Shown: piece after piece, positions 9,895 to 33,224 of the stretch | Layout: each line of letters begins with the position of its first letter | Position numbering within the stretch: the first letter of the stretch is position 1 | Notes under the pieces: generated by a model | The model's input: the letters and a program-made list of their open reading frames with translations, nothing else | Database searches by the model: none | Told to the model about the DNA's origin: nothing | Translations under genes and position numbers: made by a program | Source: Fidelibacterota bacterium | Lineage (GTDB): Bacteria; Fidelibacterota; Marinisomatia; SCGC-AAA003-L08; D37C17 | Assembly: GCA_030748955.1 (NCBI GenBank) | Contig: JASMKZ010000013.1 | Span: forward strand, 1 to 33,224 | DNA: 33,224 nucleotides | Direction: 5' to 3'

Positions 9895-10826
9895 TAGATA
9901 ATCACCTGTAATGCTTTAGGAAGAATGGAATATTTTATTGGTGGAGTACCAATATTTTCACCATCTGTTTCAACGATAACAGTATCTGAAGTATTCAATT
10001 CAAATTCGTGACAAGTTTTATAATGCGCCAGTTTTTTACCTAAGATTGTTCCAGTAAAAAGGGATGGCATCATTGCAGCTAATCCAAATTTTGAGGTCCC
10101 ATCAATCCAGACTACAGACAGTTGTCCATCATCTTGAACGGTGTCAATGCCGTAGCTCATATCACCTCCAAAATTTGAGGTTTTAAAAACGCTCGTGTTA
10201 GATAGGCTTCGCAACGGAATTTTTTCTCCGTCTATTGACATTTCAGCATTAAAGGGCTCGAACTGAGTAATAGCCTGCAAGCCGCAGATTGCCGCGCCAA
10301 TATCCACACTCATCTGCTTCAGTGTTTTGGTAAGCCCGGTAACGGAGTTGAACTTTTCATTGGCAAAGCTAATAATGCCTATGCTAGAATTATTGATAAC
10401 ATAGCGGCTGATGGGTTTCCCTGAAAAATCCTGGCATTCAACCTTGAAAATATCAATTGGAACAGAATCATCTCCTTGAATACGGTCCAGCAAGCTCCGT
10501 TTATTCTTAAATTTCTTTTCAAAATCACAGCTGCTCCCAGCGGGTAAAAAAATAAGTTTTATTTCACTAGATATTATTTGATCTTCAATAAATATTCCCT
10601 GAAGGACTTCATTTAGGGTGCCATCTCCACTAAAAACACCAATGCGATTATAGCCGGAAGAAACCGCTTCAGATACAAGTTCTGTAGCATGGTTTTGGTA
10701 TTTTGTTTTTTCAGCATGGTAGGGAATTTGATTATTTATTAAGTCATTTTCAAATTTCTGCCAACGTTTCTTAGCCTGACCATCTCCAGCAGTGGGGTTT
10801 ACAATAATGAATGTTTCAGGTTTCAT
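9894..10826 (-). CDS. diacylglycerol/sphingosine kinase-like lipid kinase
   Basis: 310 aa; IIVNPTAGDGQAKKRW and IGVFSGDGTLNEVLQGI (DAGK catalytic-domain pattern); stop overlaps the start of the S1P lyase gene by 1 nt (TAATG). Confidence 0.88.
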   Translation of the reverse strand: MKPETFIIVNPTAGDGQAKKRWQKFENDLINNQIPYHAEKTKYQNHATELVSEAVSSGYNRIGVFSGDGTLNEVLQGIFIEDQIISSEIKLIFLPAGSSCDFEKKFKNKRSLLDRIQGDDSVPIDIFKVECQDFSGKPISRYVINNSSIGIISFANEKFNSVTGLTKTLKQMSVDIGAAICGLQAITQFEPFNAEMSIDGEKIPLRSLSNTSVFKTSNFGGDMSYGIDTVQDDGQLSVVWIDGTSKFGLAAMMPSLFTGTILGKKLAHYKTCHEFELNTSDTVIVETDGENIGTPPIKYSILPKALQVII

Positions 10827-23713: not shown

Positions 23714-24196
23714 TCAGCATTTTGTAGAAATCTTTTCAATTGCAGTAATTGTGAACTTCGTCTCTTTACCCCTGATTTCAAGCGTAAAATTCTCATCAAT
23801 TTTTTTCCCAACTATAGCTTGGCCAAAAGGTGAATGGTAGGTTACAATCATAGGATAAAGATCCAACTCAAATTCGATGGGACCTAAGAGGTAATAGTCT
23901 TCGGCATCATCTTTGCCTTCTTCACGGATTGTAACCTTATTGCCAAATCCTACCTCGTCGGTTTCAATTTCGCCATACTCGATGAACCGGAATGGCGCAT
24001 GGGACTGCAACAATTGTTTCTTATATATTATTAAACTCATCTCCTCTCTAGCAGCGTGGTATTCCGCATTTTCCTTAAGATCTCCATGGCTGGCTGCATC
24101 TCTAATTTTTATTGAAGTCTCCCTCTTTAATTTATCAATAGATTTCATTTCCTCTTCCAATGCGCGGTATGTATCCTGCAAAATCAAAGTTGCCAC
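23714..24196 (-). CDS. greA: GreA/GreB-family transcription elongation factor, GTG start
   Basis: 160 aa; REtsIKIRDAASHGDLKENAEYHAAREEMSLI coiled-coil tip, C-terminal SPFGQAIVGKKIDE. Confidence 0.92.
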   Translation of the reverse strand: MATLILQDTYRALEEEMKSIDKLKRETSIKIRDAASHGDLKENAEYHAAREEMSLIIYKKQLLQSHAPFRFIEYGEIETDEVGFGNKVTIREEGKDDAEDYYLLGPIEFELDLYPMIVTYHSPFGQAIVGKKIDENFTLEIRGKETKFTITAIEKISTKC

Positions 24197-24200
24197 ATTA

Positions 24201-24243
24201 ATCTCCTTATTTGGTTAGCCTGCGTAGCATAGGGGGTTAGTTG
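24201..24243 (-). repeat. Family B copy 1 (greA leader, mini-ORF MLRRLTK*)
   Basis: ctccttatttggttagcctgcgtagcatagggggttagttgtt. Confidence 0.7.
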
Positions 24244-24443
24244 TTTTCTGCTTGACTATCTGAATCAGCATCTCTTTTATTCTTTAAGTAGTCTTCAATT
24301 CGAATTCCCAATATACCACCCATTGCGCCAGCAGCAAATATTGACAAAAATTCAACAGTTCTAATTGTATTATCGTAAATAACTACGAAATATGAACAAA
24401 GTGAGAGAAAAAACATTATGCCTATAAGTTTAATTTTCTTCAT
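24237..24443 (-). CDS. small membrane protein, hypothetical
   Basis: 68 aa with two hydrophobic segments; preceded by the family A leader with SD (AAGGAGT). Confidence 0.6.
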   Translation of the reverse strand: MKKIKLIGIMFFLSLCSYFVVIYDNTIRTVEFLSIFAAGAMGGILGIRIEDYLKNKRDADSDSQAENN

Positions 24444-24446
24444 TTT

Positions 24447-24521
24447 AACTCCTTGATCAGATATGTAAACTTAATATGGTTTACCGATAAATAAAAAAGC
24501 CCTCGATTTTCTCAGGGCCTG
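24447..24521 (-). repeat. Family A copy 1: terminator hairpin plus leader plus SD
   Basis: ccttgatcagatatgtaaacttaatatggtttaccgataaataaaaaagccctcgattttctcagggcct. Confidence 0.85.
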
Positions 24522-24621
24522 TCTAACACTAAGTTTATTTAGGAAGTGCTATCTGAGATCTAAGATGTAATTTCTAATTTGGATAAGATTATTGTAGGTG
24601 AAGTCAGAATTGCTAATTATT

Positions 24622-25305
24622 TTAATTATATTTATTAATGTTTATTTCAACACGTCTATTTTGAGCACGGTTAGCTGGTATTACATTCCCACCCTCATCT
24701 CTATTTGGCACAATGGGTGCTGTCTCTGCCCGTCCAATTGGCTTTAATTTTTTAATATCAATTCCGCTTGCGTTCAATATTTCAACTATTCCGGTCGCAC
24801 GAATTGCAGAAAGATCCCAGTTGGAATTAAAGTCTGGATTGTCTTCAGGAATAGGATCATCATCTGTGTGCCCTTCAACCTCAATCATATAGTCTTTATA
24901 TGAGGATTCATCTAAAAGCTCTGTGATAGTTTTAGATATTTCTTCAATTACGGGGGTCATATTATCCATTACAATAGCAGAACCAGATGAATAAAGGGAA
25001 CTACCTGGAATTCGAATTTTTATTCCATTAGGACCCAGCTCAACTTTAACCTGACTTTCTAATTTTTTATCTTTAATAACTTTATTTAATTCTTTTTCTA
25101 ATTCTTTAAATTCATTTTCAGTATTTTCTGCAGCAAAAGCTTCTTTCATTGCCTCTGCTAAATCCTCATACTTACCAGGATCAGGGTCAGTAGTAGAATA
25201 GAGCATAACAAAAAATGCCATCAAAAGACAAAACATGTCAGCAAATGTCCCCATATAACCAGGTTGTACATCTAAATCTTCTCTTTTTACTCTTATTTTT
25301 TTCAT
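24622..25305 (-). CDS. motB: MotB-like protein (TM anchor plus OmpA peptidoglycan-binding domain)
   Basis: 227 aa; GTFADMFCLLMAFFVMLYST (proton-channel Asp), IEVEGHTDDDPIPED...RATGIVEIL...NRRVEI; 4-nt overlap with the motA-like gene. Confidence 0.88.
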   Translation of the reverse strand: MKKIRVKREDLDVQPGYMGTFADMFCLLMAFFVMLYSTTDPDPGKYEDLAEAMKEAFAAENTENEFKELEKELNKVIKDKKLESQVKVELGPNGIKIRIPGSSLYSSGSAIVMDNMTPVIEEISKTITELLDESSYKDYMIEVEGHTDDDPIPEDNPDFNSNWDLSAIRATGIVEILNASGIDIKKLKPIGRAETAPIVPNRDEGGNVIPANRAQNRRVEININKYN

Positions 25306-26105
25306 TCTTCTGCAATATCAAAATGATTAGACGAATCAAGGTACCTATTGAGATGGTCCTGAACAGTATATGGATGTGGTTTGTTGGGCAGCATAGATAT
25401 ACCTTCGAGTAAAACCATATCACGATATTTGATGATTGAATATTGTTGCTCTAGTTTTCTTGCAGCAGGTTTAAAAAATAGATTGGCAAAAAGTACGCCG
25501 TGCAAGGTAGTAATTAATGCGATTGCCATACCACCACCAATTGCTGTCGGGTCACCGCTCATATTCGACAACATAATAACCAATCCTACCAATGTTCCTA
25601 TCATGCCGAATGCAGGAGAAAATTGAGCCATTGTATCTAATATTGTCACTACATGCATCTTCCTGTCATATGTAGTGTCTATAAAATCTTCTGTTAATCT
25701 AGATATATTTTCAGATTTCCCACCATCTAATACCATCTCCATACTATACTTTATAACGGGATTTTTATTTTCATCTACATTAAATTTTTTTTGAAGCTCC
25801 TGGATTCCACCTTTTTTTACAATTTCAGCCCAACCGATTATTTTCCCAACATCATTATATATAGTTCTTGAATTTATATCTAAATGCTTAAAAATTTTAA
25901 CCATTTCTTTAAAGGCTTGAATGACATAATTATCTTTAAAAGCAATAAATGTAGCAGCTATTGTTCCTCCTAAAACCATAAGTAAACTATTAGGCAATAA
26001 AAAGATCCAAGGATAGGGAGGAGCAGAAGGGTCTTGCCCTGATATAATTGCGTATACAAATAGTCCTATACCTGCTAAAAAACCTATTATTGTACCAGTC
26101 GACAT
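25302..26105 (-). CDS. motA: MotA/TolQ/ExbB-family proton channel, MotA-like
   Basis: 267 aa; TIIGFLAGIGLFVYAII, FSPAFGMIGTLVGLVIMLSNM, GGGMAIALITTLHGVLFANLFFKP. Confidence 0.9.
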   Translation of the reverse strand: MSTGTIIGFLAGIGLFVYAIISGQDPSAPPYPWIFLLPNSLLMVLGGTIAATFIAFKDNYVIQAFKEMVKIFKHLDINSRTIYNDVGKIIGWAEIVKKGGIQELQKKFNVDENKNPVIKYSMEMVLDGGKSENISRLTEDFIDTTYDRKMHVVTILDTMAQFSPAFGMIGTLVGLVIMLSNMSGDPTAIGGGMAIALITTLHGVLFANLFFKPAARKLEQQYSIIKYRDMVLLEGISMLPNKPHPYTVQDHLNRYLDSSNHFDIAEE

Positions 26106-26303
26106 AAAAACCTCATATTTAATAATATTTTTTTGAATAACTATAAGTTATATAGTTATAATTCAATAATCCTTATTCTTCACTTTAGTCCTTGATTGAA
26201 TACAGTAATTTAATAACAACATCAGATATTAGTAGCTTATTGTTTTAGATGAGAGCAGGGGGGGGATAGCATTTAGAGTGATTCGGGTATCGGCATACCC
26301 TGT

Positions 26304-26343
26304 AAAAACACAAGCCGAAGTATTAAATACCCTCGGCTTGTGT
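26304..26343 (-). terminator. intrinsic terminator, minus strand
   Basis: ACACAAGCCGA-14 nt loop-TCGGCTTGTGT then TTTT(T). Confidence 0.85.
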
Positions 26344-26520
26344 GATTGGACGGAACAAGTTATAAAGAAGACAATGAAAAGTCTCTAACTTGATTTTCGA
26401 CCGTCCAAATCTGTTCTGTCAGCATACTTTGAGGAGTAGTTTACCCTACAGAACGTTAAAATGTACAAAGATTACAATATAAGTGCATATAGGTAAAAGT
26501 CTGATTTATATTGTAGGATT
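26304..26520 (-). ncRNA. candidate structured RNA with intrinsic terminator, no recognised family
   Basis: Four successive stems on the minus strand: 10-bp tacaatataa(26473-26482)/ttatattgta(26506-26515); 7-bp gttctgt(26413-26419)/acagaac(26448-26454); 8-bp ttggacgg(26346-26353)/ccgtccaa(26401-26408) enclosing caagtt/aacttg; 11-bp terminator stem 26308-26318/26333-26343 followed on the minus strand by TTTTT. No plausible long ORF across it. Confidence 0.5.
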
Positions 26521-26548
26521 CTTCTTACAAGAAAACTCCATTGGCTAT

Positions 26549-26621
26549 GATTAGATATGTAAACTTAATATGGTTTGCCAATAAATAAAAAAGCCCCACA
26601 AATGCAGGGCTGAAAGTTTGT
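26549..26621 (-). repeat. Family A copy 2 (leads into the candidate ncRNA)
   Basis: gattagatatgtaaacttaatatggtttgccaataaataaaaaagccccacaaatgcagggct. Confidence 0.85.
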
Positions 26622-26631
26622 TTAGGGAGAG

Positions 26632-26937
26632 CTATTTGTGATAGTGACATTGGTACACAACTTCTACTTGAATAACACTACACATTTTATCAAGACAAGT
26701 TTCTACTCCTTCACCAAATATTTCAGCTTCTTTATACCCCCAGTTTTGACATTTTTCTATTGCTGTTTTTAAAGCATCATCCCATTGAATATCAAGATTA
26801 GACAATATACCATCATATGTATAAGACATAGCAATAGTTGCACTTGCTTGATCTCCAGCTATTGGTGATAAAAATATAATTTGAGGTTTTCTCCAACACC
26901 CAACAACAAGTAATAATATAATTAGTCTGCGATTCAT
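26632..26937 (-). CDS. small lipoprotein, possibly YecR-like
   Basis: 101 aa; MNRRLIILLLVVGC lipobox; SATIAMSYTYDGI...DALKTAIEKCQNWGYKEAEIFGEGVETC resembles the YecR-like lipoprotein pattern. Confidence 0.6.
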   Translation of the reverse strand: MNRRLIILLLVVGCWRKPQIIFLSPIAGDQASATIAMSYTYDGILSNLDIQWDDALKTAIEKCQNWGYKEAEIFGEGVETCLDKMCSVIQVEVVYQCHYHK

Positions 26938-26953
26938 AGGGGGTTAGTTGTTA
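26894..26953 (-). repeat. Family B copy 2 (intact lipoprotein signal peptide MNRRLIILLLVVGC)
   Basis: aacacccaacaacaagtaataatataattagtctgcgattcatagggggttagttgtt. Confidence 0.85.
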
Positions 26954-27094
26954 TTCGGATTCCATGGCATCTTTATAGCCTCTTTTAAAATCATCAGACA
27001 ACCATTTCCAAATGAATAGAGATAGGGATACTATAAAAGTTACAGCGACTATAATCATTGATAATACTGCTCCACCAAAAATTATTTCTTCCAT
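26951..27094 (-). CDS. 47-aa small membrane protein (absent from ORF track)
   Basis: MEEIIFGGAVLSMIIVAVTFIVSLSLFIWKWLSDDFKRGYKDAMESE*; one TM segment; positioned directly after an A leader with SD-like AAGGAAT. Confidence 0.6.
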   Translation of the reverse strand: MEEIIFGGAVLSMIIVAVTFIVSLSLFIWKWLSDDFKRGYKDAMESE

Positions 27095-27097
27095 TTT

Positions 27098-27142
27098 GAT
27101 TCCTTGATTAGATATGTAAACTTAATATGGGTTGCCGATAAT
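27098..27142 (-). repeat. Family A copy 3 (leader only, no hairpin)
   Basis: ccttgattagatatgtaaacttaatatgggttgccgataat. Confidence 0.8.
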
Positions 27143-27143
27143 A

Positions 27144-27608
27144 TTACTCACCTATAGGTGGTGGATTTGACAATAAATCTTTTGTTTCATCTTTAAAAAG
27201 CGTCCAAAGTCCATAGATACCAATCATAGTGCCAATAGGAATACTAAGAAGAGATAAACATGATAATATTATTCCAAAAACCCAGCTCCATGCTTTCTTT
27301 GTTATTAGTCCATATCCACAAATAAAACCTGGTGCTGCAAAAATGAATAAAACTGTACCAATTGATTGACCTATAATAGATGTAATTCTTATTGCAGTTG
27401 AATCTCCACTTATTTCTCCTGCCATAGGCAGAAATTGGTTAATAGCAACTCCACCAATTACCATCAATATACTAAAAGTAAGAAATAATGTACCCAAAAT
27501 ATTAATATGTTTCGTCATATCATTAGGGTCTCTCTGTTTTTTTCCACAATGCTTACATATGATTGCCTCAGTTTGAATTTCTTCTGCACAATAGTTACAT
27601 ATTTTCAT
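27144..27608 (-). CDS. zinc-ribbon membrane protein, hypothetical
   Basis: 154 aa; MKICNYCAEEIQTEAIICKHCGKK zinc ribbon followed by several TM segments. Confidence 0.7.
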   Translation of the reverse strand: MKICNYCAEEIQTEAIICKHCGKKQRDPNDMTKHINILGTLFLTFSILMVIGGVAINQFLPMAGEISGDSTAIRITSIIGQSIGTVLFIFAAPGFICGYGLITKKAWSWVFGIILSCLSLLSIPIGTMIGIYGLWTLFKDETKDLLSNPPPIGE

Positions 27609-27616
27609 TATAACAT

Positions 27617-27670
27617 CCTTTATTTTATTAGCCTGTAAATCATAACAGTTTTTTATAAGGGGTTAGTTAG
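27617..27670 (-). repeat. Family B copy 3 (mini-ORF MIYRLIK*)
   Basis: cctttattttattagcctgtaaatcataacagttttttataaggggttagttagc. Confidence 0.6.
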
Positions 27671-28106
27671 CATCTTTATCTGATGAACATTCTTCCATGT
27701 AAATTTTTATATTCATATCACCCAATGAGATTCTATAGAATACTTTCAGGAAGTATTGGCTACATTGATGCATGCAATCACACCATTCATCTGAAGATAT
27801 TGTGGATGCTACACATTCTTTTTTACAATCTTTAATTATGTTCTCTGTTTTTAGAGTAGCTGAACCTGAACTTATATTGCCATCTAAAATATTCATTTCT
27901 ATCTCAGGTTTTTTCACATCAGGAACTTCTGGCATAACTCCTTCTGCTGGTTCTATTGTCTCTTCTGTACTCTCTTTAGGCTCAGAGGGTTCAGTATTCT
28001 CTTCTGTATTCTCTTTAGGCTCAGAGGGCTCTGTATTGTCAATGGCTTTAGCTGCACACCCTATAAAAAAACTTCCAACCGTAAATAATAATATTAATTT
28101 CTTCAT
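27663..28106 (-). CDS. lipoprotein with EPSEPKE(N/S)TEE tandem repeat and Cys-rich C-terminus
   Basis: 147 aa; MKKLILLFTVGSFFIGC lipobox, Glu/Pro-rich linker, CX3C / CXCMHQC C-terminal cysteines. Confidence 0.65.
   Translation of the reverse strand: MKKLILLFTVGSFFIGCAAKAIDNTEPSEPKENTEENTEPSEPKESTEETIEPAEGVMPEVPDVKKPEIEMNILDGNISSGSATLKTENIIKDCKKECVASTISSDEWCDCMHQCSQYFLKVFYRISLGDMNIKIYMEECSSDKDAN
27961..28038 (-). repeat. 39-bp in-frame tandem repeat (2 copies; 13 aa each)
   Basis: tcttctgtactctctttaggctcagagggttcagtattc / tcttctgtattctctttaggctcagagggctctgtattg. Confidence 0.85.
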
Positions 28107-28190
28107 TTTAGTCCCTGATTAGATATGTAAACTTAATATGGTTAGCCGATAAATAAAAAAGTTCTACAAATGCAGGGCTTTACTTGAAAT
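28107..28190 (-). repeat. Family A copy 4
   Basis: ccctgattagatatgtaaacttaatatggttagccgataaataaaaaagttctacaaatgcagggct; hairpin degenerate. Confidence 0.85.
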
Positions 28191-28211
28191 TTTCCTACTC
28201 TTCTACAATTG
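28179..28211 (-). repeat. Family C copy 1, overlapping the 3' end of the SSS gene
   Basis: tttacttgaaattttcctactcttctacaattg, 28 of 33 identical to copy 2 in ungapped alignment. Confidence 0.8.
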
Positions 28212-29690
28212 TGATGCTAATTTTATGCTACTTCTCAATTTCTTCCTATCAATAGTAAAAATAGCTAAACAATTGAATATCAATCCCCATAAACCAGCAT
28301 GGATACCAAATGGTTTTATTGGTATAGGAAAACCTATCCAGTTGCCAATCATAATACTTAAGGAAATAAAAGTGCCTATATAAATCCCTATTAGAATAGA
28401 TTTAGAACTTATAGATTTAATGTGCACGCCTAAAAATATAGCAGGTGCAATTTGACATAATAATTCAAGTTTTATCTGAAATAGTTGCCAAATCGTTTGA
28501 GGTAGATTTATTGCCATAACAACTGCAATTAGCATAATTATCCAAGATATGGACTTACCAAATAGAAGAAGTATTTTTTGAGATGAGTCAGGTTTTATTT
28601 TACGAAATAAATCTTGTGTTACAGTTGATGAAATAGCCAATAATGCAGAATCTACTGTTGACATAATTGCTGCTATGGCAGCTGCAAGGAACATTACTAT
28701 TAACCAAGAAATATTTGGTATTTGTTCTGCAAGATCAACTAACAGTAATATTGATATTTGTTCACTATTATTCCTATCTAAACCCTCTATTTGTGAAGCA
28801 CCTACTATGCCAACTATCACCATAAATAAGGTCGTTACGAAAGGCATAAATACCATGAGCTGCAATGATTTCCGCAGCGTTGATGAATCTTTTGCAGAAT
28901 AGATCCTTTGGATTGCATGAGGATAAACAGAAACTCCAACAGATACTACAAGAATTGTACTTAACCATAGACGTTTAGCGCTCCAGTCAGGTGGAGTCCA
29001 AAAATCAGGACGATATATCTGCAATTGAGAAGAAATTGCATTCAAACCCCCATATTGTTTATAAATTATATAAAATATAACTATAACACCAAATAATAAC
29101 AATATTCCTTGTAACATATCAGTCCAAGCAACACTTCTCATTCCACCTAAAGTTTCATAAATCACCATAATTAATGATAAAATAATTATAGCATTAACAA
29201 AACTTACTTGACCTGCCGTTGCACCTTCAATAATAAATCCGATTGCTTTTAAATTAGTAAGAATATAATTTCCTAAGGCAATAATGGAAATTATACTTAT
29301 GGTGATTGTTAAATGAATAGATTTAAAACGATGATATATAAAATCACCTAATGTTATAAAACTATGCTTTCTAGATAAATCATGTAGCTTAGGTGCATAT
29401 ATAAAGTATAAGCCTATAATTGCACACATGAAAGTAACTGTAACCAATGCTGTAAAACCTTGTCTGTATGCTCTACCTGAGAAACCAATCATAGTGTTAC
29501 CACTATATTGGGTTGCATAAAGAGTCAAAAATAATACAACCCCACCCATACCTCTTCCCGCTAAATAAAAATCTCCTAGACTATCTTCTTTCTTTGAATA
29601 GTAACCTAGAAAACCAACACCAATAAGAGAAAATAAATACAAAAATAAAAATATTATTCCTCCATGATTTAATAAAGGAGCTGTATCCAT
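28203..29690 (-). CDS. sodium:solute symporter (SSS) family protein
   Basis: 495 aa; SLGDFYLAGRGMGGVVLFLTLYATQYSGNTMIGFSGRAYRQG, AAAIAAIMSTVDSALLAISSTVTQDLF. Confidence 0.9.
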   Translation of the reverse strand: MDTAPLLNHGGIIFLFLYLFSLIGVGFLGYYSKKEDSLGDFYLAGRGMGGVVLFLTLYATQYSGNTMIGFSGRAYRQGFTALVTVTFMCAIIGLYFIYAPKLHDLSRKHSFITLGDFIYHRFKSIHLTITISIISIIALGNYILTNLKAIGFIIEGATAGQVSFVNAIIILSLIMVIYETLGGMRSVAWTDMLQGILLLFGVIVIFYIIYKQYGGLNAISSQLQIYRPDFWTPPDWSAKRLWLSTILVVSVGVSVYPHAIQRIYSAKDSSTLRKSLQLMVFMPFVTTLFMVIVGIVGASQIEGLDRNNSEQISILLLVDLAEQIPNISWLIVMFLAAAIAAIMSTVDSALLAISSTVTQDLFRKIKPDSSQKILLLFGKSISWIIMLIAVVMAINLPQTIWQLFQIKLELLCQIAPAIFLGVHIKSISSKSILIGIYIGTFISLSIMIGNWIGFPIPIKPFGIHAGLWGLIFNCLAIFTIDRKKLRSSIKLASQL

Positions 29691-29691
29691 A

Positions 29692-29904
29692 TTATTTTTT
29701 TAGAGTTTTTTCAGATGCAGATATTGACCAATATCTATGTAAGAAATAAAAAATACTTATTGCATAAATTAAAGTTGAGAACAAGGCATACAATGCCCAA
29801 TGGGGGAAACCGCCAGTTGATTCCATTTTAGTATTAATAAAAAACCATGGAACAGTCATTAAAAGCAAAAAAGAATTTAGCCCATATAATTTAATACGTG
29901 ACAT
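29692..29904 (-). CDS. small two-TM protein (DUF3311-like partner of SSS symporter)
   Basis: 70 aa, two hydrophobic segments, immediately upstream of the SSS gene (1-bp gap), an arrangement known for SSS permeases. Confidence 0.6.
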   Translation of the reverse strand: MSRIKLYGLNSFLLLMTVPWFFINTKMESTGGFPHWALYALFSTLIYAISIFYFLHRYWSISASEKTLKK

Positions 29905-29908
29905 GAAG

Positions 29909-29941
29909 TTTACTTAAATTTTCCCCACTCTTCTACCATTG
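29909..29941 (-). repeat. Family C copy 2, just upstream of the DUF3311-like gene
   Basis: tttacttaaattttccccactcttctaccattg. Confidence 0.8.
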
Positions 29942-29967
29942 CTTTATAATTAATAATTTTATTAAAC

Positions 29968-29993
29968 ATAATCTATTCTTTCATAGGGGCTTA
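29968..29993 (-). repeat. Family B copy 6, partial
   Basis: aatctattctttcataggggcttac; shares only catagggg(c/t)tta core. Confidence 0.35.
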
Positions 29994-30008
29994 CTCAAAG
30001 GTATTGGA

Positions 30009-30221
30009 TTATGTTGTAAAGAAATCAAATACATTTGCAAGTCCTGACGCAGGTTGGCCTTTATAAAATTCTGTATAAGAACACTTGCTACAGGAAACAG
30101 AACTATACTTTTTATTCTGAATATTGAATATCTTCGTCCAAAAACTCCCTGTTACTCTCATCTCTCCTACTTCATACTCTTTCTGACTACATTTTGGACA
30201 TGACCAATTATCGTGTTGCAT
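30009..30221 (-). CDS. small zinc-ribbon protein (DUF2082-like)
   Basis: 70 aa; CPKCSQKEYEVGEMRVTGSFWTKIFNIQNKKYSSVSCSKCSYTEFYK. Confidence 0.75.
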   Translation of the reverse strand: MQHDNWSCPKCSQKEYEVGEMRVTGSFWTKIFNIQNKKYSSVSCSKCSYTEFYKGQPASGLANVFDFFTT

Positions 30222-30225
30222 CTTT

Positions 30226-30300
30226 ATTTCTCCTTTATTAGATATGCAAACTTAATATTGTTAGCTGATAAATCAAAAAGTCTTACAAATGCAGGGATGT
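30226..30300 (-). repeat. Family A copy 5 (diverged)
   Basis: ttattagatatgcaaacttaatattgttagctgataaatcaaaaagtcttacaaatgcaggga. Confidence 0.8.
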
Positions 30301-30338
30301 GAGGCTAATGTTTACTCAGGAAGTACTGTTAGATTTGT

Positions 30339-30767
30339 TTAATCAATATTGAGCATTTTATACCAAAAGAATGCTAGTAATAAAAAGCTGAAGATAAGAA
30401 AAATGAAGGGTATATTAATATTAAATGCATAGGGAGTTACACTAATAATAGTAAATATTATCCATTTATAAAATAGTAACTTTACAATTGAGCTACTTTC
30501 TATTTTCTCAGCTCTATATTCCAATAATAATAAAATTGATTGAACAATAAAAGTAATTGTTATACCTATTAGTATATAATGTAATAATTTAAAAATATCT
30601 AATAGATTATTAATTCCTAAAAAAGGTTTAACAACTTTAATTGGAATAATATTAAAAGAATTTGGGATTAAACTGATTATTAGGATTAATAGAAGCAGAA
30701 AACTTATCCCCATATCAAAATAAATAGTAAACTCTAGATTATTAAATTTATTTTTAAGACTCTTCAT
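30339..30767 (-). CDS. multi-TM hypothetical protein; ATG start (MKSLKNKFN...) preferred over the TTG start of the ORF track
   Basis: Residues upstream of MKSLKNK are read out of the decayed family B repeat, so the track start at 30794 is probably wrong. Confidence 0.55.
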   Translation of the reverse strand: MKSLKNKFNNLEFTIYFDMGISFLLLLILIISLIPNSFNIIPIKVVKPFLGINNLLDIFKLLHYILIGITITFIVQSILLLLEYRAEKIESSSIVKLLFYKWIIFTIISVTPYAFNINIPFIFLIFSFLLLAFFWYKMLNID

Positions 30768-30781
30768 ATTCAATAGTTTCT

Positions 30782-30842
30782 TCACACCCAACAATAAGTA
30801 ATAATATAATTTAGTCTGCGAATCATAGGGGTTTAGTTATTA
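30782..30842 (-). repeat. Family B copy 4 (frameshifted signal peptide)
   Basis: cacacccaacaataagtaataatataatttagtctgcgaatcataggggtttagtta; one extra T/A breaks the frame. Confidence 0.85.
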
Positions 30843-30944
30843 ATCTCTATTAGCCTTTTTCAGTTTGTTCTCTGCTCTCTTTTCTTTTGCTGTTTTAGTA
30901 GTTGCTTTTTTAGTTGCTATTTTTGGATCTCTACCTTTGCCCAT
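30840..30944 (-). CDS. 34-aa highly basic peptide (absent from ORF track)
   Basis: MGKGRDPKIATKKATTKTAKEKRAENKLKKANRD*; preceded by TCAAGGAGATAATAATG (SD) at the end of an A leader. Confidence 0.65.
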   Translation of the reverse strand: MGKGRDPKIATKKATTKTAKEKRAENKLKKANRD

Positions 30945-30946
30945 TA

Positions 30947-31022
30947 TTATCTCCTTGATTAGATATACAAACTTAATATGGTTTGCCAATAAATAAAAAA
31001 GCACCACAAATGCAGAGCTATG
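30947..31022 (-). repeat. Family A copy 6
   Basis: ctccttgattagatatacaaacttaatatggtttgccaataaataaaaaagcaccacaaatgcagagct. Confidence 0.85.
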
Positions 31023-31045
31023 AAAAAAGAATTGGAGAGGTGGGT

Positions 31046-32287
31046 TTAGTTAGTAAGAATGATGTTAACTAATGCAACTACATCAAGAATATTAATTTCG
31101 CCATCATTATTTATATCTGCACCATCAAGTTCAACAGCTGCAGGACTAAGTATATGATTAACTAAAATAATCACATCAAGTATATCTATACTATCATCAT
31201 AGTTCAAATCGCCAATTATTGAATCAATAAATTTAGTAAAGAAATTCCAAATTTCTTGACTAGAATAGTTTGGCCAATCATGGCCTCCATTAACTACTTC
31301 ATAAAGCCATACTTCATTATTATTAGAACAATTAAAATATCGATGATGAATTGTATTCATACCTAATAATAAATTATTTTCACTATTTACACATTCATTT
31401 TGTCCAATCCAAAATTCTATTACTTCATTCATTCCTGGATATGGTCCCCAATAGGTATCGTTTAGGTCTCCATCCCACAATGTTACATTATCATTTGTTC
31501 CATGTATTTCTAATACTGGTATTTGTTCAGTAGAACAATCAGTCCAAGATTCCCCAAACATTGTACCAGCAACTGGAGCAATAGCTCCAAATTTATCTCC
31601 TGCAAAACAAGCCAACATATAAGACATCTCAGCACCATTTGACATGCCAGATGCAAATGTATTATCGGAACTTAAATCGTATTCATTTTGAAGGTGCACT
31701 GCTAATGTACTTAGAAAGCCTACATCATCCACGGTTTGATTTTGATGGAAATTATAGCCAACATTCCAAAATCTATCACCATTCTGATCAATTGTACCAT
31801 CTGGATAACAAACAGCAAAACCATTCTCATCAGCAACAGATTGCATCCCTGAATAGTTATACATTCCAATTGCTGAACCTGTAAATCCATGCATTAAAAA
31901 TATTAGCGGTGCATTTGGAGGTATTGATTCAGGAATATATAAAATATATTGACGCATATCTCCTTCATACATGAATGTAAATTCTTGCGGTAGATAGCTA
32001 CAGTATCCATTAGAATCTGTATATATATCGCCACAATCGCCACAATCGAAACTATATTCCGCACATTGAAAATCATAACCCCATTCTCCATCATCACACC
32101 AACCATCGCCAACCCATGCATCTGTAATACCATCACCGTTATAATCTTCACAATATTCATTGTATACATAACAATCAAAACCAAATCCAGGTTCATTATT
32201 ACAAAAATATTGCCCATTACAGTCAAACATAAGCATATTTTCATCACAATCTTGTCCCCAACTGAGACTTAATAGCGATAACAGCAA
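31046..32287 (-). CDS. secreted esterase / PHB-depolymerase-like hydrolase with N-terminal Cys/Asp-rich (LNR-like) region and C-terminal dockerin-type repeat
   Basis: 413 aa; PLIFLMHGFTGSAIGMYNYSGMQSVADENGFAVCYPDG, ASGMSNGAEMSYMLACF (GxSxG), NGGHDWP; C-terminal GDLNYDDSIDILDVIILVNHIL...GADINNDGEINILDVVALVNIIL. Confidence 0.88.
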   Translation of the reverse strand: MLLSLLSLSWGQDCDENMLMFDCNGQYFCNNEPGFGFDCYVYNEYCEDYNGDGITDAWVGDGWCDDGEWGYDFQCAEYSFDCGDCGDIYTDSNGYCSYLPQEFTFMYEGDMRQYILYIPESIPPNAPLIFLMHGFTGSAIGMYNYSGMQSVADENGFAVCYPDGTIDQNGDRFWNVGYNFHQNQTVDDVGFLSTLAVHLQNEYDLSSDNTFASGMSNGAEMSYMLACFAGDKFGAIAPVAGTMFGESWTDCSTEQIPVLEIHGTNDNVTLWDGDLNDTYWGPYPGMNEVIEFWIGQNECVNSENNLLLGMNTIHHRYFNCSNNNEVWLYEVVNGGHDWPNYSSQEIWNFFTKFIDSIIGDLNYDDSIDILDVIILVNHILSPAAVELDGADINNDGEINILDVVALVNIILTN

Positions 32288-32473
32288 TAATATGTAGATA
32301 TTTCTAATACTTCCTCCTAAATGTATATATCAATTAAAATTTACAGCACTTTACCTGATGCATCCAAATGGCTCTATCACATAAAATTTTCCAAAAAATA
32401 TTTGAGAATGGGTGTAAGACTTTTGTTATGTTGGTACACCCCGTTGAAAGTTTCCCTATGGGTTTAAATCAAG

Positions 32474-32794
32474 TTAGGAAATAATCCTTGTTGTATCTTT
32501 AGAATCGTGTTCGATTGGTGGCGCTGGTGGAGTGATTATCTCCTTATCTTTAGGGAAGTATCTGCCCTTTGAATTTTCTTCATTTCTAAATTCATACATT
32601 TTGTCCATCAAATGAAGATTATCTATAATACCGCCTTCAGGAGTTTCTCTTAATGGATGATCCCAATCCATACTATTTACATCATTTTGCTCCCAATAAT
32701 CTTCTTGAAATCGTCCATAATTCTTTGGTGGATTTTTATCCATATAAATGGATAAAGAAGTTGATAATAATAATGCTGTTAAGAAAGCTCCCAT
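32474..32794 (-). CDS. hypothetical secreted/anchored protein
   Basis: 106 aa with N-terminal hydrophobic segment MGAFLTALLLSTSLS; codon-biased ORF on the same strand as neighbours. Confidence 0.45.
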   Translation of the reverse strand: MGAFLTALLLSTSLSIYMDKNPPKNYGRFQEDYWEQNDVNSMDWDHPLRETPEGGIIDNLHLMDKMYEFRNEENSKGRYFPKDKEIITPPAPPIEHDSKDTTRIIS

Positions 32795-32823
32795 TTTACT
32801 GAAATATATTACTTATTGTTAAG

Positions 32824-32879
32824 TCAACTAACAATAAGTAATAATATAATTAGACTGTTAATCATAGGGGTTAGTTAGC
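32824..32879 (-). repeat. Family B copy 5 (signal peptide ending in premature stop MINSLIILLLIVS*)
   Basis: caactaacaataagtaataatataattagactgttaatcataggggttagttagcg. Confidence 0.85.
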
Positions 32880-33182
32880 GTCTGGTAATATCTTGCTTAT
32901 TAAAGTTAGTAGATTGACTTTAGTCGTAGAATCTGATTCACTATAAGCTGATTTTATACCATAATCAATTAGTAATATATCTTTTACATCGAGTTGTGTT
33001 GTTCCACCTTCAATATTAATAATTCTAGCAACTTTACCTTTTTTTGAATTGACAATAATTTTCCCATCTTCATACTTTTTAATTGTGCCAGTAACATATG
33101 TGCCATACTTATCTATTATAGTAACAGTAGGTTCTTCAGCAAAAAGACTTCCAAACATAAATATTATTATTATTTTTTTCAT
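32871..33182 (-). CDS. hypothetical exported protein
   Basis: 103 aa; MKKIIIIFMFGSLFAEEP signal peptide; preceded by A leader with AAGGAGT. Confidence 0.55.
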   Translation of the reverse strand: MKKIIIIFMFGSLFAEEPTVTIIDKYGTYVTGTIKKYEDGKIIVNSKKGKVARIINIEGGTTQLDVKDILLIDYGIKSAYSESDSTTKVNLLTLISKILPDAN

Positions 33183-33224
33183 TTGACTCCTTGATTAGAT
33201 ATGTAAACTTAATAGGGTTAGCCG
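33183..33224 (-). repeat. Family A copy 7 (cut by window edge)
   Basis: tgactccttgattagatatgtaaacttaatagggttagccg. Confidence 0.85.

Follow-up and report, generated by a model that had tools for sequence, protein, structure and literature searches.

What brings together a run of small, unrelated genes, all on one strand and parted by the same few repeats, beside a core gene such as greA? The window analysed here (33,224 nucleotides) is the whole of contig C44 of a Neomarinimicrobiota metagenome-assembled genome (MAG; G000, 1.79 Mb in 355 contigs, ~91% complete), and its initial annotation described, upstream of greA, seven copies of a repeat family A and five to six of a family B between unrelated minus-strand genes, in roughly A-gene1-B-gene2-A order, as a possible undescribed platform for gene capture or shuffling.

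Unrelated genes clustered between recurring repeats

From greA to the right edge all genes lie on the minus strand (Table 1). Seven A leader cores and five B-type joints, with a partial sixth, separate them, in agreement with the copy numbers first reported. When all proteins encoded in the array stretch were compared with one another no related pair was found, and the slots are thus occupied by unrelated genes. Pattern searches of the whole genome (1.79 Mb) recovered 14 A sites, 7 of them within the 9 kb of the array (Poisson P ~1.6e-12); since a reversed control pattern gave no match, this clustering is not due to chance. The array is also AT-richer (31.7% GC, versus 38.8% in the remaining contig). 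Because the right end of C44 falls within an A copy, and three other contigs of the same genome (C304, C308 and C288) begin in an array repeat or at most ~150 bp from one, we conclude that the array goes on past the contig end and that the assembly was broken there. The strict alternation of A and B holds in the window but not elsewhere, where we encountered the order A-g-B-g-B-g-B-g-A (L016) and a B joined straight to an A leader (L017:1261).

Table 1. Features of the array and its greA edge, from right to left along the window.
Feature	Position	Strand	Detail
Repeat A, leader of first gene (32871-33182)	33192..33223	-	core 33192-33223; contig ends inside
Slot gene, exported protein	32871..33182	-	103 aa
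Repeat B	32825..32877	-	encodes truncated mini-ORF MINSLIILLLIVS*
Slot gene	32474..32794	-	106 aa
Slot gene, esterase with dockerin domain	31046..32287	-	Esterase_PHB, Dockerin_1; probable ATT start a few bases upstream
Recombinase-gene tail, 30 bp	31027..31056	+	identical to 3' end of tRNA-associated tyrosine recombinase gene of G000:C155
Repeat A with terminator	30955..31023	-	core 30956-30987
Slot gene, basic peptide	30840..30944	-	34 aa; relative in G001:C1 (L081) has a different next gene
Repeat B	30785..30842	-	signal-peptide ORF frameshifted
Slot gene, TM protein	30339..30794	-	real start probably ATG at ~30765
Repeat A with terminator	30225..30296	-	core 30235-30266
Slot gene, Zn-ribbon DUF2082 protein	30009..30221	-	PF09855
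Partial B-like joint	29982..29996	-	AAGCCCCTATG
Slot genes, 70-aa protein and sodium:solute symporter	28203..29904	-	symporter PF00474
Repeat A with terminator	28111..28179	-	core 28116-28147
Slot gene, lipoprotein-like	27663..28106	-	147 aa
Long B variant (X2) with short ribosome-site leader (Y3)	27610..27669	-	
Slot gene, Zn-ribbon TM protein	27144..27608	-	
Repeat A without terminator	27100..27141	-	core 27105-27136
Repeat B	26897..26949	-	YecR-like lipoprotein start MNRRLIILLLVVGC
Slot gene, YecR-like lipoprotein	26632..26937	-	PF13992
Repeat A with terminator	26543..26615	-	core 26548-26579; leads into structured RNA
Non-coding, strongly structured	26240..26550	-	fold z = -7.2
MotA/MotB-like genes	24622..26105	-	
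Repeat A with terminator	24449..24512	-	core 24454-24485
Slot gene, TM protein	24237..24443	-	68 aa
B stop-restart joint (X1) fused to ribosome-site leader (Y3), ahead of greA	24197..24242	-	
greA, core gene at array edge	23714..24196	-	

Connectors are combined from recurring halves

Read in the direction of the genes, A begins with a terminator T-tract (TTTTTTATTTATC; terminator-like T-tracts stand ahead of five of the seven cores in the window) and continues with GGCAAACCATATTAAGTTTACATATCTAATCAAGGA, which bears the ribosome site for the gene that follows. B reads (TAA)CTAACCCCCTATGATTCGCAGGCTAATTATATTATTACTTATTGTTGGGTGT, providing stops, an ATG that shares the frame of the usual stop and, as a rule, a lipoprotein signal, MIRRLIILLLIVGC. 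All three frames are closed in B (TAA, TAA and TGA), and genes ending on different ones of these stops were observed. A and B have a core in common, GGCTAA..ATATTA, and hybrids between them occur. Across the genus we distinguish four left halves of connectors (X1, short B; X2, long B; X3, terminator; X4, hairpin) and three right halves (Y1, lipoprotein signal; Y2, A leader; Y3, short ribosome-site leader), which were found in the combinations X1Y1, X1Y2, X1Y3, X2Y1, X2Y3, X3Y2 and X4Y2. In several B copies the signal peptide ahead of an unrelated gene is truncated or frameshifted, yet their silent and non-coding bases remain near-identical, from which it follows that the protein is not what holds the B sequence constant. 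Promoter-like sites were no commoner in A than in shuffled sequences (52 versus 53.7), and no sigma-70 promoter was detected in A. Judged from these motifs, each connector would most simply be an expression signal (terminator, leader and ribosome site, or stop-restart), and at the same time it would present a short stretch of shared sequence to recombination.

Genes turn over between the connectors

Upstream of greA the window's genome carries the array, G003 has a dockerin nuclease gene and G004 has glmS (the last two identified by reading the sequence), and similarity resumes at the start of greA; the array is absent there from both of these sister species. An out-of-register join at greA was considered and rejected, as the alignment gives ATATGG to ATGTGG, an ordinary change from ATG to GTG. 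Content likewise differs among close relatives at two other conserved flanks, those of RNase H and of tRNA-Met.

The same genes are also found with different connectors. One family stands under three different leaders (G001:C3, G001:C19 and G005:C168), one of which is itself a hybrid, and two of its members are ~97% identical between G001 and G005, where rnhA is 81% identical. The Zn-ribbon TM gene of the window has a copy in G000:C308, 87% identical in DNA, whose leader and following gene are both different; a decayed copy of the YecR unit, conserved from joint to joint, lies in G000:C333; and in G001 the relative of the 34-aa gene is followed by a different gene starting from CCCCTATGA. Connectors or neighbours are altered in relatives of four genes (Zn-ribbon, YecR, 34-aa and MKKLL). 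The terminator found on its own, without A, in G005:C60 recurs in G001:C1 with an A leader attached, and identity stops at the T-tract TTTTTTTATTTA. With neighbours and gene order differing between species and leaders differing on one gene, the turnover of genes between the repeats is real, as had been anticipated from the window.

Within the joints, breakpoints were located at no fewer than five positions, that is, at least in the T-tract, in the core, in mid-leader, before the ATG and at CCCCTATGA; they were placed by eye from alignments, with no formal breakpoint test, and the informative pairs come from only about six gene families. All genomes compared are fragmented MAGs or single-cell assemblies that are broken at these very repeats.

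Proposed exchange through short shared sequence

We favour, with a probability of roughly 0.6, the view that the locus is an array of cargo genes on a flexible genomic island of a marine genus within Neomarinimicrobiota, in which expression connectors are reused and genes are exchanged by recombination within short shared sequence. Small and mostly exported genes would be kept as short operons linked by a small recurring set of connectors: A would close the previous transcript at its T-tract terminator and give the first gene its leader and ribosome site, B would end any upstream frame and restart translation at its ATG, often with a lipoprotein signal peptide, and a third connector half would contribute a ribosome site alone. 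Because the connectors are near-identical everywhere, recombination within them, whether homologous or microhomology-mediated, could insert, remove, swap or re-lead genes, and could exchange them between species. The occurrence of breakpoints at several positions inside the connectors favours short-homology recombination over the use of one fixed site. It counts against this scheme that selection acting on random joins could also give rise to the clean junctions near start and stop codons.

A and B might instead be ordinary dispersed leaders for regulation or translation initiation, kept alike by selection, with the turnover amounting to the usual gain and loss of island genes and the repeats having no role in recombination. 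Such an explanation, which we regard as unlikely though deserving of serious weight, sits well with the plain expression signals in both families (terminator, ribosome site and stop-restart) and with breakpoints that lie where selection would tolerate them. It is at odds with the constancy of silent and non-coding B bases despite broken peptides, which coding selection does not explain, and with the hybrid connectors and the change of connector on one gene, which mean that recombination happened inside connectors.

Proposals in which the connectors are themselves dedicated sites for the movement of genes appear less probable again. It is improbable, in our estimation, that they are genuine sites of recombination in a gene-capture system other than an integron, driven by an unrecognised recombinase or by a host recombination pathway; if so, a connector may work as a universal joint, able to close whatever frame runs into it, to start translation anew and to provide a signal peptide. 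More doubtful by a shade is a site-specific cassette system, in which an unrecognised recombinase would act at GGCTAA..ATATTA and genes would move from core to core. In keeping with it, the core is common to A and B, the switch from X1 to Y2 lies exactly there (L017:1261), and two loci retain the YecR unit from core to core; against it, there are at least five breakpoint positions and not one crossover site, the core is no inverted repeat and has no attC-like fold, and the array contigs inspected have no recombinase in common. Since the breakpoints do not agree with any one crossover point, we rate a site-specific system below short-homology exchange.

A tRNA-Met element in the same hypervariable neighbourhood

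The genome encodes three tyrosine recombinases, one of which (346 aa, with the usual motifs) lies at the end of contig G000:C155 beside a complete tRNA-Met and an array. A second, identical and complete tRNA-Met is found at the end of G000:C244, together with the ancestral upstream DNA, while the interior of the element between the two is unassembled; in G005 both flanks are joined via a single tRNA-Met, representing the uninterrupted site without the element. Tycheposon insertion leaves a full tRNA on both sides, and from the contig arrangement we read the C155/C244 pattern as the signature of an element that inserted at a tRNA in this manner. The array and the tRNA element share a hypervariable neighbourhood. 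Downstream of tRNA-Met, G003:C39 (L146) contains a tandem series of at least three ~130-bp repeats that all close with the tRNA 3' end (CCCTGAGGGCCCACC) and resemble stacked attachment sites.

Short 3' tails of the recombinase gene (its last 23-80 bp) are dispersed in the genus and in G014 (L130-L138, L085, L090, L141 and window positions 31027-31056). Their 3' end is almost fixed (GGTGGGTTTAG) and their 5' end variable, and they adjoin the 3' ends of cargo genes; in G005:C168 and G001:C43 such a tail abuts an array. The window itself contains no tRNA and no complete recombinase gene, only the one tail. In phage and plasmid collections the relatives of the recombinase among the matches listed are distant (<30% identity).

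It would be attractive to assign the movement of array genes to this tRNA-targeting recombinase, with the array as the body of a tycheposon-like element, given the position of its gene next to tRNA-Met and an array, the tails in the window and abutting two other arrays, and the contrast between the single-tRNA site of G005 and the two complete tRNA-Met copies of G000. We nevertheless hold this to be the least probable of the recombinase-based proposals so far, since an A-gene-B module lies beside tRNA-Met in G005, where the element is missing, so that the module is outside that insertion, and since neither A nor B resembles the 3' end of the tRNA. Tycheposons and flexible islands of marine bacteria are bordered by tRNAs and carry a tyrosine recombinase (ISME J 2024 wrad036, PMC10872708). 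The system described here shares with them a tRNA-associated tyrosine recombinase, a complete tRNA on both sides, hypervariable and AT-rich cargo and a streamlined marine host; it differs in its A and B connector families and their combinatorial reuse, which the available part of PMC10872708 does not describe, and in that the array at tRNA-Met lies outside the recombinase element and that of the window is bordered by greA.

Comparison with integrons, Xer sites and MITEs

In integrons, genes travel as cassettes with attC sites, in many of which the stop codon overlaps the start of the repeat, under the action of IntI. The array resembles this arrangement in its small, unrelated genes of one orientation, the repeat after each gene, the stop codons in, beside or overlapping the start of the connector, and the turnover between strains. 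Neither A nor B joints adopt an attC-like fold, however, the folding energy of B being -0.1 to -1.1 kcal/mol compared with ~-23 kcal/mol for the VCR attC control, which does fold; this substantiates the earlier impression by eye that canonical attC sites are lacking. The array-adjacent tyrosine recombinase (the one scored of the three in this ~91% complete MAG) reached 36.9 bits against an integron integrase cut-off of 265. With both defining features, fold and integrase, failing, the integron reading is rejected as extremely improbable; breakpoints at several positions and connectors that give the next gene its start codon and signal peptide set the array further apart from integrons. Nor did the dedicated capture platform first suggested find support, the attC fold being absent, the recombinase acting at a tRNA and not being IntI, and the breakpoints being scattered.

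Xer (pdif) modules, in which dif-like XerC/XerD sites flank the genes, were provisionally set aside: no dif-like consensus common to the genus, by which the host's own dif could be recognised, was found, and A and B lack the dif pattern that was searched. No inverted repeats pair the ends of A or of B, and the two sides of the joints vary independently, for which reasons MITEs were rejected. Dispersed intergenic repeats of the REP/BIME/MITE type are similarly short, near-identical, non-coding and present in many places, as A and B are within one genus; A and B differ from them in having no terminal inverted repeats, in joining gene to gene in one orientation relative to the genes, and in being clustered in islands.

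Distribution of the connectors

Among named genomes, exact matches to A occur in Candidatus Neomarinimicrobiota only. Exact or nearly exact A is present in 4 of 23 genomes of the family, all four belonging to the window's genus, and B in 5 of 245 genomes of the phylum, four from that genus and one, with a single copy, from a sister genus; some of the apparent absences may reflect repeat-rich arrays that the MAGs do not include. Copies of A are on average 92% similar between species and 90% within a genome, and rnhA differs by 9-22% from that of the window's genome. By the initial annotation, its proposal would be refuted if A and B were ordinary dispersed elements with conserved synteny of the genes between them and no cassette turnover; what we find is turnover, along with repeats that are closer across species than core genes are.

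A phage or plasmid origin of the array was rejected: viral contigs gave no match to the A core or to the recombinase-gene tail, and a single match to B, in IMG/VR contig L142, probably a chimeric assembly, in which a phage portal gene takes over after B and a cut SRAP-like gene. Scanning viral contigs for proteins related to the DUF2082 product found nothing. We also discarded a defence island, as ten cargo proteins had no PADLOC match. Titles and abstracts of the literature on repeats and islands in Marinimicrobia contain no description of A/B joints that we could find.

A streamlined ocean bacterium could in this way keep exchanging small exported proteins, each expressed at once on arrival in a ready-made joint. 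If the joints drive the exchange, gene arrays can be built without an integron, and such arrays could be common yet unseen, since short-read assemblies break at these repeats.

Further features of the arrays

In a sister species, two adjacent frames resembling an IS3-type transposase pair lie beside an array (L083:1318-2489, G001:C19). The structured stretch behind an A leader in the window folds far better than shuffled sequences; it had no match in Rfam, and relatives contain nothing close to it beyond 40 bases in G004. Finally, a leader consisting of AGGAGG and then ATT, in place of ATG, GTG or TTG, is common to window positions 32277-32352 (minus strand) and L085 (~10688-10766), where it belongs to two dockerin-type or exported proteins from two species, which suggests that ATT may serve as their start codon.
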